This document shows positions 465 to 34,255 of a stretch of 47,843 nucleotides of DNA, piece after piece; the first letter of the stretch is position 1, and each line of letters begins with the position of its first letter. The DNA lies in contig CAKZXA010000103.1 of NCBI GenBank assembly GCA_937922045.1, positions 1-47,843 on the forward strand. The letters are read 5' to 3'. Under the pieces are notes generated by a model that saw only the letters and a list, made by a program, of their open reading frames with translations, had not been told where the DNA came from and ran no database searches. The position numbers and the translations under genes were made by a program. This stretch comes from an uncultured Acidimicrobiales bacterium. GTDB taxonomy: Bacteria > Actinomycetota > Acidimicrobiia > Acidimicrobiales > SZUA-35.

Positions 465-538
465 TCGGGTTGGGGAGATTTGAACTCCCGACCTCCTCGT
501 CCCGAACGAGGCGCGCTACCAACCTGCGCTACAACCCG
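465..538 (-). tRNA. tRNA-Pro (anticodon CGG)
   Basis: Reading the minus strand gives a complete cloverleaf: 7-bp acceptor stem CGGGTTG/CAACCCG, D-stem GCGC/GCGC, anticodon stem CCTCG/CGAGG closing the loop TTCGGGA (anticodon CGG), T-stem GGGAG/CTCCC with loop TTCAAAT, and discriminator A. The 3' CCA is not encoded, as is common in actinobacteria. The length of 74 nt is normal. Bases C1 and G72 fit proline identity. Confidence 0.96.
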
Positions 539-13400: not shown

Positions 13401-14147
13401 TCAGACCGTCATCGGCTCGGCGCCGGCCGGAACGTCGGTCCGTTCGATAGTGACGGTCGTGTTGATGAACGTCGATGAGGGCACGAGCACCGTCTCGCCG
13501 TCTTTCGCCGCGATTTCGACTGCGGTGGGATGCACCGCGCGGACCACACCAGACACACCGCCGACGGTAATCGCGTCACCCTGGCTGATCAGACGTTTAA
13601 GGGCTCGTGTGGAAGCAACCTCGCGGGCAACACTGTTGCCGCCGAGGCCGACGAGCAAGGTAAGGCTCGCCGCCATACCGAAGAACACAGCGCCGAGCGC
13701 CATGTTGACCACTTCGGTGTCAACGCCGAGTTGGGAGACGGCCAGTAGGGCGGCCATGATGAAGATGAACGCCTTGACCACGAGGCTGGCTTGGCGTTGT
13801 ACCTGAAGCGGCATTCTGCCCAAAGCCTGATCGAGCGCTGCGGTGGCGAACGTTACAAGGACGTTGGCCACGATGATGATGATGGCGGCCATCAACACCT
13901 TGGGCACGAAGGCCACGACGTCTCGAGGGAGATCATCGAGCGATCCGGGAGCCAGGATGCCGACAGCAGCGATGAGGCCGAGTACAACGCCGACTGCGAA
14001 GGCCAGGCTGGACAAGGGCCTAGCCACTTGCTGCAGGGCTTCGGGCCGTTTGGGGGAACCGACGATGGAATGAACGATTCGTGAGAGGATCGTTCCGAGT
14101 AGAAAGCCGCCCAAGATAAAAATCGGGACCAGCAGCCACTTATCCAT
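13401..14147 (-). CDS. Small MscS-type mechanosensitive channel family protein
   Basis: A 248-residue protein with about five membrane helices. One pore-like segment is rich in Gly/Ala (ALGAVFFGMAASLTLLVGLGGNSVAREVAS), and an MscS-type beta domain follows (RLISQGDAITVGGVSGVVRAVH, then VLVPSSTFINTTV). MscS-like channels release solutes on osmotic downshock. Its start overlaps the end of the anti-sigma gene by eight bases, so it is the third gene of the sigma/anti-sigma operon. That suggests an envelope- or osmotic-stress circuit (inference). It lacks the large cytoplasmic vestibule of canonical MscS. Confidence 0.82.
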   Translation of the reverse strand: MDKWLLVPIFILGGFLLGTILSRIVHSIVGSPKRPEALQQVARPLSSLAFAVGVVLGLIAAVGILAPGSLDDLPRDVVAFVPKVLMAAIIIIVANVLVTFATAALDQALGRMPLQVQRQASLVVKAFIFIMAALLAVSQLGVDTEVVNMALGAVFFGMAASLTLLVGLGGNSVAREVASTRALKRLISQGDAITVGGVSGVVRAVHPTAVEIAAKDGETVLVPSSTFINTTVTIERTDVPAGAEPMTV

Positions 14148-14457
14148 CAGGTTGTTCCTCCGTGAGTAGCAGTTTCGTCGCTTCGAAGCCGGCTCCGAAA
14201 AGATCGGAGACGACGTTGAGCATCATCTTCGAGTCGAGACGATCGGTGACCTTCTGTTCTAGCCGCACCGAGAGGTCGGCCGGTGGCACGAAGAAGGCGG
14301 CGAGAACATCGGCGATCGGTGCTTCGGCTTCAGCGTCTAACGATTCAAGCGTCGAAGCGCATCGTTGGCAGCTGTCGAGGTGGTCGTCGAGATCACTATC
14401 CACCTCGCCTGTCAGCCAGGCGCGGAGAGCTTTCTTGGAAGGGTGGCGCAGAATCAT
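14140..14457 (-). CDS. Zinc-finger (ZAS) anti-sigma factor
   Basis: A 105-residue protein from the ATG that forms ATGA with the sigma-factor stop; a GTG two codons upstream is also possible. The N-terminal zinc-binding anti-sigma motif H-x3-C-x2-C (DDHLDSCQRC) and the position right after an ECF sigma gene identify it. There is no membrane segment, so it is a cytoplasmic anti-sigma factor, of the kind that often responds to redox or to a separate signal. It overlaps both neighbours, so sigma factor, anti-sigma factor and channel are made together. Confidence 0.87.
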   Translation of the reverse strand: MILRHPSKKALRAWLTGEVDSDLDDHLDSCQRCASTLESLDAEAEAPIADVLAAFFVPPADLSVRLEQKVTDRLDSKMMLNVVSDLFGAGFEATKLLLTEEQPDG

Positions 14458-15149
14458 GCCCACTCCCGCAACGCATTACCCAGCTTGCGTCGAGCGCGCA
14501 GCAGGCGCGTCTTCACCGTCGGCATCGGAACGTTGAGTACTTCCGCAATCTCGTCGTAGGCCATGCCCTCCAGCTCTCTCAGCACCACGATACTTCGAGA
14601 TAGTTCATCAAGCATGTCGAGGGCTTCGGTGAACTCTTCCATCACCGCTTCGCTCTGAACGCTAGCCTCAACCGATTTCTCCGGTTGCTGAAGGCGTTCC
14701 GGTAGATCGTGAGGGTCCACGACCACGGCCCGACGGCTGCGAAGCGTTGAGATAGCTGTGTTGTGGGCGATACGCAGCACCCAGCCGCGCAATGACGAAT
14801 CGCCTCTGAAGCTCGGAAGGGCCAGCCAGGCCTTTACAAGGGTCTCTTGGGCTACATCTTCGGCTAGTGAGCGATCGCGTACAACCGAGAGGGCGAGCCT
14901 AAAAATGGCATCGCCGTGATCGACGACGAGATTGTGCAGATCTTCAGGATCGCTTTGCTTTACATCGCCCTCTATCGGTGCGGCCCCGGTGGCGGTGTTC
15001 ACAGCATCGCCTACGACCGATCTAGCGGTCGTAGTGCCCGGCCTGTGAGACCACAGACGGGGAACAATGCGAAGTGTCATCGTCACCATTGAAGTAGTGA
15101 CGTCTGAACCTCTAGAGATGTCGCGGTGAACACCGCTGAATACCGACAT
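14454..15149 (-). CDS. ECF-type RNA polymerase sigma factor
   Basis: A 231-residue sigma-70-family protein. Region 2 is at about residues 70-140 (DAIFRLALSVVRDRSLAEDVAQETLVKAW, then RGWVLRIAHNTAI), and region 4 at about 165-225 (LRELEGMAYDEIAEVLNVPMPTVKTRLLRARRKL). The first 60 residues match nothing obvious. ATG 15149 has GGAAGG eight bases upstream and is kept, though internal ATGs at 15089 and 15080 are possible. It is followed directly by a ZAS anti-sigma factor and a channel. I could not find a convincing GGAAC-type autoregulatory promoter. Confidence 0.9.
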   Translation of the reverse strand: MSVFSGVHRDISRGSDVTTSMVTMTLRIVPRLWSHRPGTTTARSVVGDAVNTATGAAPIEGDVKQSDPEDLHNLVVDHGDAIFRLALSVVRDRSLAEDVAQETLVKAWLALPSFRGDSSLRGWVLRIAHNTAISTLRSRRAVVVDPHDLPERLQQPEKSVEASVQSEAVMEEFTEALDMLDELSRSIVVLRELEGMAYDEIAEVLNVPMPTVKTRLLRARRKLGNALREWA

Positions 15150-15182: not shown

Positions 15183-15334
15183 TCGCCCTCAGCGACGACC
15201 TCGTTGATGAGGTCACTTACTCCTATGGTGGCGGAGATTTGGCCGTTCCGCGCTTTTTTCGGGATTTTTCGCGACCAACTGGCGACTCAAGTCGTCAGTC
15301 TTCGTGAATCAAGCACAAAGGGAGTAGTGAAATT

Positions 15335-16066
15335 ATGGAAGATGAGGCTTGGAGCATCGTTGATGCCCTACAGGACGCGCTTAGCTCGTTCCTGAACACC
15401 CTTGGGGATGCACTCCCCAAGCTCATCGGTTTCCTGTTGATCCTGTTCATCGGTTGGTTTGTCGCCAAGTTCGTCGCCCGCATTGTCGGGCGGCTGTTCA
15501 AGGCCGTCAATATCGACCGCTATCTCGATCGAGCTGGAATCGGCGGTCCTCTTGAAAGGGCCGGTTATGCAGACAGTGGCCGTTTCGTAACGAAGATCAT
15601 GTACTACCTAATGATGCTTTTCGTTCTGAAGGCGGCGTTTGGGTTCCTCGATATCGATGCACTCAACCAGCCGTTTGACGCACTGATCCTCTGGATCCCG
15701 AAGGCACTCGTGGCCTTGATCCTGATCGTTATCGGCGGAATCGTGGCCAATGTTGTCCGCGACCTCGTTGCCGGTATCACTGCAGGACAGAGCTACAGCA
15801 ACATGGCAACCAATGCAGCTGGACTCGGCGTTTGGATGATCTTTGGCCTCGCAGCCTTGGATCAGGCTCAGATCGCTGGCGATCTGATCGACACGCTTAC
15901 CACAACCATCCTTGCCAGCCTTGGTGCCATCTTGGTCATCAAGTACGGCGTCGGTGGCATCTGGTCAGCACGTGATCGGTTCTGGCCGAAGGTGTACGAC
16001 AGCGTTGGATCAGCAACAGCTTCGGGTGCCCCTCAGCAGGCACCAGCCCCTCAGCCCCGGGTCTAA
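15335..16066 (+). CDS. TM-helix-repeat (CmpX/MscS-related) membrane protein
   Basis: A 243-residue protein with an N-terminal amphipathic region, four to five membrane helices and two copies of the conserved TM-helix repeat: LPKLIGFLLILFIGWFVAKFVARIVGRL near residue 28 and IPKALVALILIVIGGIVANVVRDLV near residue 128. This repeat is found in CmpX and in some mechanosensitive channel proteins. No MscS beta domain follows, and the tail is Ala/Pro-rich. GGGAG lies upstream of ATG. It is divergent from the ECF sigma operon, whose last gene is also channel-like, so a shared regulon is plausible. Confidence 0.8.
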   Translation: MEDEAWSIVDALQDALSSFLNTLGDALPKLIGFLLILFIGWFVAKFVARIVGRLFKAVNIDRYLDRAGIGGPLERAGYADSGRFVTKIMYYLMMLFVLKAAFGFLDIDALNQPFDALILWIPKALVALILIVIGGIVANVVRDLVAGITAGQSYSNMATNAAGLGVWMIFGLAALDQAQIAGDLIDTLTTTILASLGAILVIKYGVGGIWSARDRFWPKVYDSVGSATASGAPQQAPAPQPRV

Positions 16067-16082
16067 GGCCCGAGAGTTGAAA

Positions 16083-16199
16083 CGGTGATTGTGGCCTAGG
16101 CGACAGGCCATGATTACCGGGCGACGACAGTTCTCCTGGGTGGGGCCCTCAGCCACCTAGGAACCGGGGCAGGCTCGTAAGGGCGATTCGAGCCTGCCC
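16083..16199 (+). ncRNA. Structured 3' region: two hairpins plus terminator
   Basis: Three strong hairpins follow the stop of the TM-helix-repeat gene. First, 16083-16119: 15 continuous base pairs including G-U pairs and a 7-base loop. Second, 16130-16164: about 13 pairs with one bulge. Third, 16167-16199: a perfect 11-bp stem ending GGGCAGGCTCG/CGAGCCTGCCC, followed by TTCTCTCTC, a plus-strand terminator. The wobble pairs argue for RNA structure, not a DNA-binding site. It could be a 3' UTR element or a small RNA. I match no known Rfam class by eye. Confidence 0.5.
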
Positions 16200-16215
16200 T
16201 TCTCTCTCAAAAAGT

Positions 16216-16367
16216 CTTCTCTTTGCCTTGGAAGCTCCTTAACCGGATGTCTTCCCTCCGCCGCAAGGCTTCGGGCGACAAAGAGAAGCGATTCTCACAA
16301 GGGCGATGTGGGCGACATATCTTTATGAGAATCGACAAGAGCCGACTCCCTCAGGGTCGGCTCTTGT
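16216..16367 (+). ncRNA. Candidate small RNA with three abutting stems
   Basis: Stem A pairs 16216-16225 (CTTCTCTTTG) with 16279-16288, with further nested pairing CCTTG/CAAGG inside. Stem B pairs 16289-16297 (CGATTCTCA) with 16326-16334. Stem C pairs 16335-16346 with 16356-16367 and is followed by AGTTTTC, like a terminator. The three stems touch with no linker, as in coaxially stacked RNAs. It sits after one complete terminator and before a convergent gene, so a second plus-strand transcript may end here. The motif GGGCGA recurs five times across 16118-16316. Confidence 0.45.
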
Positions 16368-16405
16368 AGTTTTCGGACATCGCTGCTGGCGGAGCGAAGA
16401 GGACG

Positions 16406-17341
16406 CTAGGCCAGAGCGGCGAGAGCTTCATTGACCTCGACGAGGTCGAAGACATTGTCCAGCCGGTCGAGGATCACGCCGTCGGCGGTGATGAGAAACA
16501 ACGATGGCTCGAACAACAGGCCCAATGCTTCGACGGCAGGAGCAAGACGGATAGCGGGATCGTTGAAGTCGCCACCAACTTCGTTTGGATTGGCGTAGAC
16601 CTCAACGTGCACGGCCTCCACCGGGCTGTCGTCGGGGAGGGAAGCCACCGCCTCGACCAGGGTGTCAACCACCGGACCGCAGTAAGCGGTCTGGCAGAAG
16701 GCCGGTGTGGCTATGAGGAGGGCAAAGGGCCGACCGGTCTCGAGCAGGGTGGCCGTATCGTGCTCATGCAGCGGGCAGGGTTCGAACCGGGTGCAGAGCT
16801 GGTCGACGCCGTCAGGTTTGGCGAAGGTCGGTGTGGTAAGTGCGGGAAACCGATCACCAGCGAGCGGAACGGTGATGTCGCTTGGATCGAAGGCCTGGAT
16901 TGGCACCGACGCAGTCTGGCCGTCGACGACGAGTTCGAGGTCGTAGATACCCGGATCGGGCAGTGTGGTACGGAGCGGGTAGTAGCGTTGCACATCGCTG
17001 TGCTGGTGATCGGGGCTCGACCCCTCGACATGGTCATGGTTGATGATGTGACCAACCATCTCGGCTCGATCGATCTCAACACCCTTGTTCAGCACCCGGA
17101 GTAGAACGGGCTGGTCGTCGGCGATCGACACCGAGGTCGCCGTGGTGACCAAGCCGAGCGGGATACGTTGAGGCCGACCTGCGGCCAAGACGCGGTCGGG
17201 TGAGCCGAGCGGAACAAGGAGAGGCGGGTCGAGCTTGGCGCCGACGCCCAACCGTGAACAGCTGCTCATGGCCGCTGCCGTCCCGACCATCGTCGCTGAA
17301 GCGGCGAGAAAACGGCGACGGCTGATGGCTCCTGCGGTCAT
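16406..17341 (-). CDS. Tat-exported thioredoxin-like protein
   Basis: A 311-residue protein with a twin-arginine signal (SRRRFLAASATMVG), followed by AAMSSC, which could be a lipobox with C28. The middle has a beta-rich region with several His residues (HIINHDHVEGSSPDHQHSD). The C-terminal third looks like a thioredoxin fold with C-x4-C (TPAFCQTAYCGPVVD) and an LFLITADGVI strand. The Cys spacing differs from CxxC thioredoxins and suggests metal handling or a SCO/peroxiredoxin-like role (inference). TAGCGT lies eight bases before ATG. It is divergent from the 2Fe-2S fusion gene, 43 bp apart. Confidence 0.78.
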   Translation of the reverse strand: MTAGAISRRRFLAASATMVGTAAAMSSCSRLGVGAKLDPPLLVPLGSPDRVLAAGRPQRIPLGLVTTATSVSIADDQPVLLRVLNKGVEIDRAEMVGHIINHDHVEGSSPDHQHSDVQRYYPLRTTLPDPGIYDLELVVDGQTASVPIQAFDPSDITVPLAGDRFPALTTPTFAKPDGVDQLCTRFEPCPLHEHDTATLLETGRPFALLIATPAFCQTAYCGPVVDTLVEAVASLPDDSPVEAVHVEVYANPNEVGGDFNDPAIRLAPAVEALGLLFEPSLFLITADGVILDRLDNVFDLVEVNEALAALA

Positions 17342-31648: not shown

Positions 31649-32413
31649 ATGAGCGAACCAATGAGTGATCCCACAACCAGTGATCGATTGAAGCGCTATG
31701 GCATACCGGCCGCTTTGCTCGTCGGTGGCATGGCCGTGGGCTCACTGTTCGCCCCGATCGGCTTGGCTTCGGCCCAAGAGTCTGACGGCGCAGAATCCGA
31801 TGCCACCACCGACACCGACACCGACACCGGTGAGACCGATGGCGCCAAGTCGTTGGCGGAGATCGCCGAGAGCCTAGAAGTCGACGACGAAGCGGTAAGA
31901 GCTGCACTAAGCTCGGCGGCTGAAACCCATCTGGATGCGGCGGTCGAAGCTGGTCGTCTCAGCCAGGAAGAAGCTGATGAGAAGCTGGCCGAGATGACGG
32001 AGCGTCTCGATGACAAGATCAACGAGGTCCGCGGCGAAGGTGAAGGCGTCGGTCGCCAGCGCGGTCATCGCAAGCACCATCGCTCACACCGGGCTGAGAT
32101 GAGCGAGTTCCTCGGGCTGAGCGGTGCCGACATTCACGAAGGCCTGGCCGAAGGCAAGAACATCGCCGAGCTTGCCGCCGAGCAGGGCATCAGCGAAGAC
32201 GAACTCGTCGACCACATTGTCTCGAATATCGAGACCCACATGAACGAAGCCGTTCAAGCCGGCAAGATCGAGGCCGACGACGCTGCCCAGAAGCTGGAGC
32301 AGGTCGAAGAGCATGTCACCGACATGGTGAACGGTGAACTCCCAACGTTTGATGGAAAACGGGGAATGCGCAACCATGCTGATCGGTTTCATAAAAGCGC
32401 TGACGGAGCGTAA
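31649..32413 (+). CDS. Exported or anchored protein with two helical repeats
   Basis: A 254-residue acidic protein with a signal-like segment (residues 20-42, ending LASA), an Asp/Thr-rich linker with DTDTDTDT, and two related units of about 59 residues. Unit 1 (68-126) starts SLAEIAESLEVDDEAV and unit 2 (171-229) starts NIAELAAEQGISEDELV. Both then carry an ETHLDAAVEAG- or ETHMNEAVQAG-type helix and an EEADEKL-like turn. A His/Arg-rich stretch (RGHRKHHRSHR) joins them. AAGGAGACT precedes ATG. I do not know its function; adhesion or metal binding are guesses. Confidence 0.8.
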   Translation: MSEPMSDPTTSDRLKRYGIPAALLVGGMAVGSLFAPIGLASAQESDGAESDATTDTDTDTGETDGAKSLAEIAESLEVDDEAVRAALSSAAETHLDAAVEAGRLSQEEADEKLAEMTERLDDKINEVRGEGEGVGRQRGHRKHHRSHRAEMSEFLGLSGADIHEGLAEGKNIAELAAEQGISEDELVDHIVSNIETHMNEAVQAGKIEADDAAQKLEQVEEHVTDMVNGELPTFDGKRGMRNHADRFHKSADGA

Positions 32414-32502
32414 TCAACGCTCCAACATCGGTGCAACCAAATAACCCATAGCACCAAACCCAACTGCGCAATACTCCCCCTTAAGTAGAGCGCAGTCTCC
32501 CG

Positions 32503-32535
32503 CCACGGCTCCGGATTCCCTCCCCGGAGCTGTGG
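32503..32535 (+). terminator. Terminator of the helical-repeat gene
   Basis: A 12-bp stem (CCACGGCTCCGG with CCGGAGCTGTGG, one G-U pair), followed by TTCGTTTTG. A weaker stem, ACTGCGC/GCGCAGT, lies just before it (32463-32496). Confidence 0.8.
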
Positions 32536-32557
32536 TTCGTTTTGACGCTCTCGCCGC

Positions 32558-34255
32558 TCAGCTAGAGCTGCCGCCTCGATACAGGTTCGTGATCGGCATG
32601 CGCCGGTCTTTACCGAAGGCTCGCTTGCTGATACGGGTGCCGAGCGGGCTTTGCTGGCGCTTGAATTCGGCGATGTCGACCAGGCGAGCGATACGACGGA
32701 CGACCGCCTCGTCCCCGCCTGCCTCGATGAGGTCGTGAGCGGTTCGATTCTGCTCAACGAGCTGAATCAACATGGGGTCCAACTCCTCGTAGGGAGGCAG
32801 GCTCTGGTCGTCGCGTTGGTCGGGGCGCAGCTCGGCCGACGGGGCTTTCGTCAGAATGTTCTCGGGGATGATTTCTCGCCCCGCCCGTCGGTTGTAGTCG
32901 CGTGACAGCTCGTAGACCTGGAGTTTCCAGATGTCCTTGATGACGGCGTAGGCCCCAGCGGTGTCGCCGTAGAGGGTTGAATAGCCAACTGCTGTTTCGC
33001 TCTTGTTGCCTGTCGTGAGCACCAGCCAACCAAACTTGTTGGCCAAGGCCATGAGCACAACACCGCGGATGCGACTCTGCAGGTTCTCTTCGGTGAGCCC
33101 CCACGGCTCGGTTCCCAGCGAAGGGGTGAGCATGTCCATGAAGCCGTGGTGGGCGGCCTCGATCGGCACCACCCGTCCGTCGATGCCCAGGTTCTGCACG
33201 AGCTTCTCTGAATCAGATACCGAGTGGTTTGAGGAGTAGCGGGACGGCATCATGACCGCATGCACGTTTTCGGGCCCGAAGGCGTCGGCGGCGAGACAGG
33301 CGGTGATGGCTGAATCGATGCCGCCCGAGAGGCCGAAACACACCTCGGTAAACCCGTTGTTGTTCACGTAATCTTTGACGCCGAGAACAAGAGCGGCCCA
33401 GATCTCCTCCAGCGGGTCGAGCAGGGGTTCGAGCACGGGCGGAAGGCCAGCCCGAGACTGCGACGCGCGATTGGTCACCTCGGTTAGCGGCAGCGTTACC
33501 GGCTTGCGGTCCGTCACGGCGAAGTCGGCGATCTGGACTTGCTCGACGAACTGCCCGGCCCGGGCGATGATTTCACCGTTCACATCGACGACGACAGAGG
33601 CCCCGTCAAACACGAGTTCGTCCTGGCCGCCGACGAGGTTCACATAGGCGATCGGTGTGGCGCACTCGGCGAACCGATCGTCGAGCATGGCGTCACGCTC
33701 CTCCACCTTGTCCTTATGGTAGGGGGATGCATTGATGTTGACGATGATCTGAGCGCCACCGTCGGCCAAGGCCTTGCAAGGTCCGTCGGCGATCCAAAGA
33801 TCTTCACAGATGGCAACACCGACGTTGACGCCGGCGATCGACCACAGTGGAAAGTCGGAGCCGGGGGTGAAGTAGCGCTTCTCGTCGAACACGTTGTAGT
33901 TGGGCAGGGCCTGCTTTGTGAACGAGCCCTTCACCTCGCCTCCGGCGCAGATCGCGGCCCGGTTGTAGATGAGTTCGGGGTTCTCCGGGTCTCGATCGGC
34001 ATAGCCAACGATCACGGCACAGTTACCGGTGGCGGCCGCAACCCGTGCCAACGCAGCCTTGTTGTCAGCGATGAAACGAGGCTTGTACAGCAAGTCTTCC
34101 GGTGGGTAGCCACAGATCGAGAGCTCGCCGAAGACGGCGAGGTCACAATCGGCGGCTTCCGCCTGGGTGAGGGCCTCGATGATGAGGTCCGCATTGTGAT
34201 CGAGGGCGCCGACGATAATGTCGATCTGGCACAGCGCGATTCGCAGAGTTGGCAC
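32558..34255 (-). CDS. nadE: Glutamine-dependent NAD+ synthetase
   Basis: A 565-residue two-domain enzyme. The N-terminal nitrilase-type glutaminase has ELSICGYPPEDLLYKP (catalytic Glu), a Lys in KQALPNYNVFDEKRYF, and the nucleophile Cys in VAICEDLW. The C-terminal synthetase has the ATP motif GLSGGIDSAITACLA. It amidates nicotinic acid adenine dinucleotide with glutamine nitrogen. The two-domain form is usual in actinobacteria. The start is GTG 34255 with TAGAGT seven bases upstream and no Shine-Dalgarno. Confidence 0.96.
   Translation of the reverse strand: MPTLRIALCQIDIIVGALDHNADLIIEALTQAEAADCDLAVFGELSICGYPPEDLLYKPRFIADNKAALARVAAATGNCAVIVGYADRDPENPELIYNRAAICAGGEVKGSFTKQALPNYNVFDEKRYFTPGSDFPLWSIAGVNVGVAICEDLWIADGPCKALADGGAQIIVNINASPYHKDKVEERDAMLDDRFAECATPIAYVNLVGGQDELVFDGASVVVDVNGEIIARAGQFVEQVQIADFAVTDRKPVTLPLTEVTNRASQSRAGLPPVLEPLLDPLEEIWAALVLGVKDYVNNNGFTEVCFGLSGGIDSAITACLAADAFGPENVHAVMMPSRYSSNHSVSDSEKLVQNLGIDGRVVPIEAAHHGFMDMLTPSLGTEPWGLTEENLQSRIRGVVLMALANKFGWLVLTTGNKSETAVGYSTLYGDTAGAYAVIKDIWKLQVYELSRDYNRRAGREIIPENILTKAPSAELRPDQRDDQSLPPYEELDPMLIQLVEQNRTAHDLIEAGGDEAVVRRIARLVDIAEFKRQQSPLGTRISKRAFGKDRRMPITNLYRGGSSS

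Follow-up and report, generated by a model that had tools for sequence, protein, structure and literature searches.

A family-restricted RNA with two conserved loop words lies downstream of an MscS-like membrane protein gene in uncultured Acidimicrobiales

Positions 16083–16367 of the window (the whole stretch of 47,843 nucleotides analysed here, from an uncultured Acidimicrobiales bacterium) hold an array of hairpins in which two fixed loop words, CCCUC(A/C) (the C loop) and GGGCGA(U/C) (the G loop), sit on stems of nearly free sequence. The structure is real, the plus-strand RNA is the form under selection, and the RNA is lineage-specific, restricted in the samples searched to one uncultured actinobacterial family. 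By analogy with known systems, we tentatively read 16083–16376 as the 3′ part of an ECF-controlled protein-plus-RNA operon whose RNA would act in trans like CcsR and ar14, a reading to which we assign a probability of roughly 0.45.

The array lies between an ORF at 15335–16066 on the plus strand and a convergent ORF at 16406–17341 on the minus strand, the latter with no Pfam or NCBIfam family match. The minimum-energy fold of the plus strand of 16083–16367 contains six local helices, in the order G-like, C1, G, branched helix, G and C, where C1 and C2 are two types of C loop described below:

16083–16119, plus strand: hairpin 1, 15 pairs including wobbles, G-like loop AGGCGAC (fold, motif count)
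16134–16162, plus strand: hairpin 2, C1 type, loop GGCCCUCAG (fold, alignment, covariance-model matches)
16166–16200, plus strand: hairpin 3, G type, loop UAAGGGCGAUU, followed by UUCUCUCUC with no U-tract (fold, alignment, covariance-model match)
16216–16288, plus strand: helix 4, branched, with one GGGCGA (16273) near the 3′ side (fold, source genome only)
16289–16334, plus strand: hairpin 5, apical loop GGGCG(A) (fold, source genome only)
16335–16376, plus strand: hairpin 6, stem 16335–16367, C-type loop CCUCA, tail AGUUUUCGG; probable intrinsic terminator (fold, sequence)

An earlier note on this DNA had described a six-helix region between convergent genes, with one hairpin of 15 pairs including wobbles and three abutting stems. 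All of these were reproduced in the minimum-energy fold at the same coordinates, the 15-pair hairpin as 16083–16119 and the abutting stems as 16216–16288, 16289–16334 and 16335–16367. The fold has an energy of −144.3, compared with −107.1 ± 5.1 for dinucleotide shuffles (z = −7.28, none of 200 shuffles being as low), and the minus strand folds less well (z = −5.76). The raw fold energy is unexceptional in this GC-rich window, where two of 167 tiles of 285 nt are better and one is equal. The five copies of GGGCGA that the note had counted are present at 16119, 16181, 16273, 16301 and 16310, against 0.24 expected from the window rate (Poisson P of about 5 × 10−6).

A U-tract, AGTTTTCGG, comes directly after the hairpin 16335–16367, in agreement with the U-tailed hairpin ending at 16367 reported previously. 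The other terminator proposed at the time, at 16199, does not stand: the hairpin 16166–16200 is followed directly by TTCTCTCTC, without a U-tract. A consensus terminator scan listed neither hairpin. Because the hairpin ending at 16200 has no U-tract, and is thus no canonical terminator, the puzzle of two plus-strand terminators, which had seemed to require a second transcript or read-through, dissolves; a single transcript driven from the motif at 15270 and closing with the U-tailed hairpin at 16367 would explain the layout.

When 61 genomes were searched at the nucleotide level, matches to part of the region, over hairpins 2 and 3, turned up in the source genome and in five of eleven same-genus genomes. 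The MscS-like protein encoded at 15335–16066 served as an anchor; it is present in 37 of the 61 genomes and gave 52 named loci, mostly from Acidimicrobiia MAGs, in which the DNA 3′ of the gene was read (the relatives are MAGs). In many of these loci the stems differ and the loops recur. C1 loops usually consist of GG, GA or AG followed by CCCUCAG, C2 loops read ACUCCCUCC or similar, and UCC variants of the C loop occur in L079 and L089. The base that follows GGGCGA in the G loops is U in 79% and C in 21% of cases. Arrays often begin with C1 and G, continue with two or three C2 and close with G (L077, L079, L080 and L105); L066 has G, several C and G, and seven loci carry G hairpins only (L083, L085, L088, L091, L092, L097 and L108).

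The two words are concentrated on hairpins 3′ of the gene and on its strand. Among stems of at least nine pairs in 50 of the 52 loci (L062 and L106 omitted), GGGCGA is found on 31 of 125 hairpins and CCTC[AC] on 33 of 125 within 350 nt 3′ of the gene, compared with 0 and 2 of 95 on the opposite strand and with 2 and 8 of 266 across the remainder of these loci; the loci are related, and hairpin and locus counts are not independent. Reversed-motif controls gave 0 of 125 for G and 18 of 125 for C, the latter being unclean because C2 loops contain the reversed string. By a simple rule, 18 of 31 arrays have a U-tailed hairpin no farther than 520 nt from the gene, and in 10 of these 18, the window included, it carries a C or G loop; none was found in the other 13.

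Compensatory changes in homologous regions, the check that the note had proposed, are present and favour an RNA: in an 18-sequence alignment of the C1–G pair of hairpins they occur in 18 of 23 base pairs. In this alignment 87.7% of cells are paired; 500 shuffles gave 76.4 ± 1.0%, and slid controls reached no more than 55.8%. The 18 rows are the window and 17 of 25 candidate stretches; L058, L062 (sequence identical to L059), the second stretch of L065, the first and third of L071, both of L094 and L098 were left out, and of these L058, L094 and L098 were later matched by the covariance model R1 described below. The invariance of the motifs is partly a matter of choice, since candidates were selected by motif and spacing and not by pairing. 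Among 14 G hairpins both sides vary at all 12 pairs; the percentage paired in this set is inflated, because only rows with 10 or more of the 12 pairs were admitted. Across 85 motif hairpins from 30 loci there are 81 G–U pairs and 33 A–C mismatches (binomial P of about 8 × 10−6). As these two classes are swapped when the hairpins are read as the other strand, the excess of G–U identifies the plus-strand RNA as the selected molecule.

R1, a covariance model of the C1 and G core, matches 26 of 39 family genomes and 8 of 11 genera at E up to 0.1. Searches of even samples of the order and the phylum were run with strict filters, which lose weak matches; R1 matched 6 of 198 genomes of the order sample, all within the family, and 1 of 198 of the phylum sample, which is the source genome, with no match in the other families of the former or the other genomes of the latter. 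A seventh family member in the order sample (G016) gave no R1 match under the stricter filters and a weak one in the family search. The models built on one hairpin alone, R2 for C1 and R3 for G, are matched in 24 of 39 family genomes apiece (E up to 0.3). Of their matches, 21 of 34 for R2 and at least 29 of 45 for R3 share a contig with the channel gene; many of the others are weak and may be due to chance, since both models were built from short hairpins. Applied to 48 channel loci, most of them without an array, R3 gave five clear matches, in the G-only loci L088, L091, L092, L097 and L108, and one weak match in L119, on the other strand (20.8 bits). All three genomes of genus g5 have the channel and no match to R1, R2 or R3, and neither channel gene nor array was found in G022, G030 and G034 of genus g2.

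The one R1 match and one R2 match in the source genome (R3 has none there) are not the many similar copies expected of intergenic repeats of the REP/BIME type. A genome-wide terminator or repeat class was likewise rejected: the loop pattern GGNCCCTCAGCC occurs six times in the source genome, against four for the reversed control, and a table of 61 genomes, taken unsummed, has no general excess of it. In approximately 380 kb of the source genome, GGGCGA or CCCTC is near the loop in 5 of 89 hairpins of at least 11 pairs, two of them in the array. Elsewhere in the window, a single plus-strand hairpin at 32502–32536 has a C2-type loop, ATTCCCTCC, and a tail, TTCGTTTT. It sits 3′ of an ORF at 31649–32413 (plus strand, assigned to no Pfam family), in convergent arrangement with an NAD synthase gene at 32558–34255 (minus strand). 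It is one of two non-array places where a long stem carries a CCCTC loop, besides 413–448 and one in L038. The hairpin at 413–448 has 16 pairs and a CTCG loop and adjoins a tRNA gene at 465–538 (minus strand).

In Rfam, the whole window has one match above the gathering threshold, a tRNA, and 15250–16450 gave chance-level matches only, with no ar14 at E up to 5. This bears out the earlier statement that the region resembles no known riboswitch or RNA class; a known family was set aside for lack of any match above threshold at the locus, and the similarity to ar14 is one of analogy. The ar14 model (RF02344, gathering threshold 58.8) scored 31.4 for the array of L105 and 25.2 for that of L077, with no score for L066 and L098, and the 6C model matched neither the window nor these four arrays.

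CcsR RNAs have C-rich loops, and we know of no counterpart of the G loops in the CcsR system. According to the available part of PMC10253847, ccaF1-CcsR1-4 of Rhodobacter sphaeroides (CIN1/cuckoo RNA) is a protein gene with tandem RNAs on one transcript, having an alternative-sigma promoter and an end terminator. The DNA here has a like layout and a promoter motif, and the proposed single transcript would make the two comparable. They differ in the protein, which there is a small DUF1127 RNA-binding protein and here an MscS-like membrane protein (the upstream protein matches MS_channel_1st_1 and has no DUF1127 match), and in the sigma factor, RpoHI/RpoHII there and an ECF-type motif here. The ar14/NfeR1 RNAs of Rhizobiales are described, in the portion of PMC10746234 at hand, as several hairpins with an identical C-rich loop on strongly differing stems, for which an anti-Shine-Dalgarno reading is given. 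The likeness lies in one C-rich loop word on divergent stems. Their loop is CCUCCUCCC, which was not found in the array loops; here it is CCCUCA or CUCCCUCC, with GGGCGA as a second word, and in another phylum. In the text available from PMC10470900, the mycobacterial 6C/B11 sRNA is an actinobacterial RNA acting via C-rich hairpin loops; it has two loops, in contrast to the arrays with two loop words considered here. A literature search over titles and abstract openings found no paper on an RNA of the present type.

The proposed operon and its likely controller comprise the following features:

14140–14463, minus strand: possible anti-sigma factor gene (the NCBIfam match is very weak, with 17 bits where the cut-off is 100)
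14454–15149, minus strand: divergent ECF sigma factor gene, likely controller (domain match)
15270–15296, plus strand: ECF-type promoter motif CGCGAC-N17-CGTC, 5′ of the channel gene (motif counts)
15335–16066, plus strand: gene for an MscS-like membrane protein (Pfam MS_channel_1st_1), which would open the proposed operon

A second MscS-like gene, with an MscS beta domain, is found at 13401–14147 (minus strand), beyond the sigma and anti-sigma-like genes. The promoter motif is conserved: of 47 loci, 42 have CGCGAC-N16/17-CGTC in the 260 nt that lie 5′ of the channel match, and among the loci with an array it is present in 29 of 30. In a first count it lay within 120 nt of the start, as assigned by simple rules, in 39 of 45 loci. 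The strict motif occurs three times in approximately 380 kb of the source genome and precedes one of 378 ORFs of at least 150 amino acids, the channel gene. Since it is also present at channel loci without an array, the motif by itself is no pointer to the RNA and may be older than it. We infer that the neighbouring ECF sigma factor reads the motif. In Pseudomonas aeruginosa, the ECF sigma factor SigX controls the MscS-type channel gene CmpX (PMC7641640); the cfrX-cmpX unit shares the pairing of ECF sigma factor and MscS-type channel gene, and differs in that an RNA array is not mentioned in the part of that source available.

One genome, G013 (96% complete), retains the promoter motif and an RNA module although no channel gene was found in it. 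At the locus the gene convergent in the window is missing as well, and the sigma gene, the promoter motif (L157, 1394–1420) and a module scoring 68.8 bits (1501–1569) are kept, the module standing directly before a [2Fe-2S] protein gene. Because promoter and module are retained there, the RNA can, in this one genome, outlive both neighbours. Tandem AACGTGACACGGC-like repeats lie between the promoter motif and the RNA module (L157, 1410–1500). Modules elsewhere are rare. In G006 and G008 they apparently flank a flavin monooxygenase-like gene on both sides, G017 has one upstream of a TetR-family gene, and there are weaker matches besides; the promoter motif is absent 5′ of the module copies checked in G006, G008 and G017. 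The C1–G modules of L166 (G008) and L167 (G006) stand upstream of the flavin monooxygenase-like gene, apparently downstream of it too, and on its strand.

In the trans-acting reading, the order would be promoter (15270), MscS-like membrane protein, hairpin array and intrinsic terminator (16335–16376), with the hairpins as scaffolds displaying CCCUC(A/C) and GGGCGA(U/C). Envelope or osmotic stress would free the sigma factor, so that channel protein and RNA are made together, and the array, intact or cut from the mRNA, would then act in trans. The C loops may pair with Shine-Dalgarno sequences of targets (GGGAG, GGAGG, GAGG) and block translation, as in ar14/NfeR1, CcsR and 6C/B11, and the G loops may have another role, most likely protein binding.

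The sequences upstream of starts bear on the pairing. With the first ATG taken as the start codon, the DNA before 256 starts of the source genome is enriched most strongly in the 5-mers GAGGA (12, 1.8 expected), GGGAG (13, 2.4 expected) and GGAGG (11, 2.0 expected). The C2 loop CUCCCUCC is complementary to GGGAG and GGAGG, which rank second and third. The C1 complement GAGGG is barely enriched (4 against 2.2 expected, rank 153), C1 sharing the CCUC core. Complementarity thus suggests that C2 loops are suited to Shine-Dalgarno pairing, and C1 loops less so. Pairing of C2 with the Shine-Dalgarno sequence of the channel gene itself is not supported, AAGGGAG being present also at loci without C2 loops. 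For the G loop, the complement TCGCC is not enriched before the 256 starts (5 against 7.0 expected), and a smaller count of 161 ORFs had no TCGCCC before starts; the G loops as anti-start elements are not supported. With TCGCC not enriched and GAGGG barely so, the pairing idea covers part of the array and the G loops need another partner; the seven G-only loci argue against a pure anti-Shine-Dalgarno role.

In an alternative that we consider less likely than not, an RNA-binding protein would recognise the G loops, and perhaps the C loops too, as recurring binding sites, and the array would be a 3′UTR sponge or stability element for the channel mRNA without mRNA pairing. CsrB and RsmZ, which act on CsrA as protein-binding RNA sponges, would be its model. 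The invariance of the G loop on varying stems fits (the motif was also the search key), as do its unenriched complement and the loci with G hairpins only; the match of the C2 loops to the Shine-Dalgarno complement tells against it, and the partner protein is only postulated. The protein-binding and the trans-acting readings are compatible, and both can hold. It is quite improbable that the hairpins are a cis-acting 3′ end only, which would guard the channel mRNA against 3′ exonucleases and stop transcription between the convergent genes, the loops being fixed by local turnover or folding needs. The position after the gene and the U-tailed hairpins (18 of 31 arrays, 10 of 18 with a C or G loop) agree with such a role. 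However, protection alone needs no two fixed loop words, other hairpins of the source genome rarely share them (the 5 of 89 above, two in the array), and the module, kept in G013 where no channel gene was found, precedes genes in G006, G008 and G017. Kissing between the GGG of the G loops and the CCC of the C loops, inside one molecule or from one molecule to another, which would fold or lock the array, appears very unlikely. Three G–C pairs are possible and the UCC variants of L079 and L089 would still allow one wobble, but only these three pairs are common, leaving the rest of both motifs unexplained, and G-only loci exist. The G motif is invariant in the set, and loop–loop covariation is therefore invisible.

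Returning to the trans-acting operon, an extension of it that we hold to be unlikely is that one sigma-controlled transcript repeatedly shows CCCUC to ribosome-binding sites and GGGCGA to another protein or RNA partner, with the channel gene as a passenger. If this is true, the array would be a lineage-invented riboregulator in which recognition lies wholly in the loops and the stems are free to drift. Operons that combine a protein gene with an sRNA array of fixed loops are known from Alphaproteobacteria; if an uncultured actinobacterial family uses a similar design, extended by a second conserved loop word, it would have reached this solution independently. Such an operon would link a channel of mechanosensitive type with an ECF sigma factor and with riboregulation, and the GGGCGA loop would offer a concrete handle on a putative RNA-binding factor.
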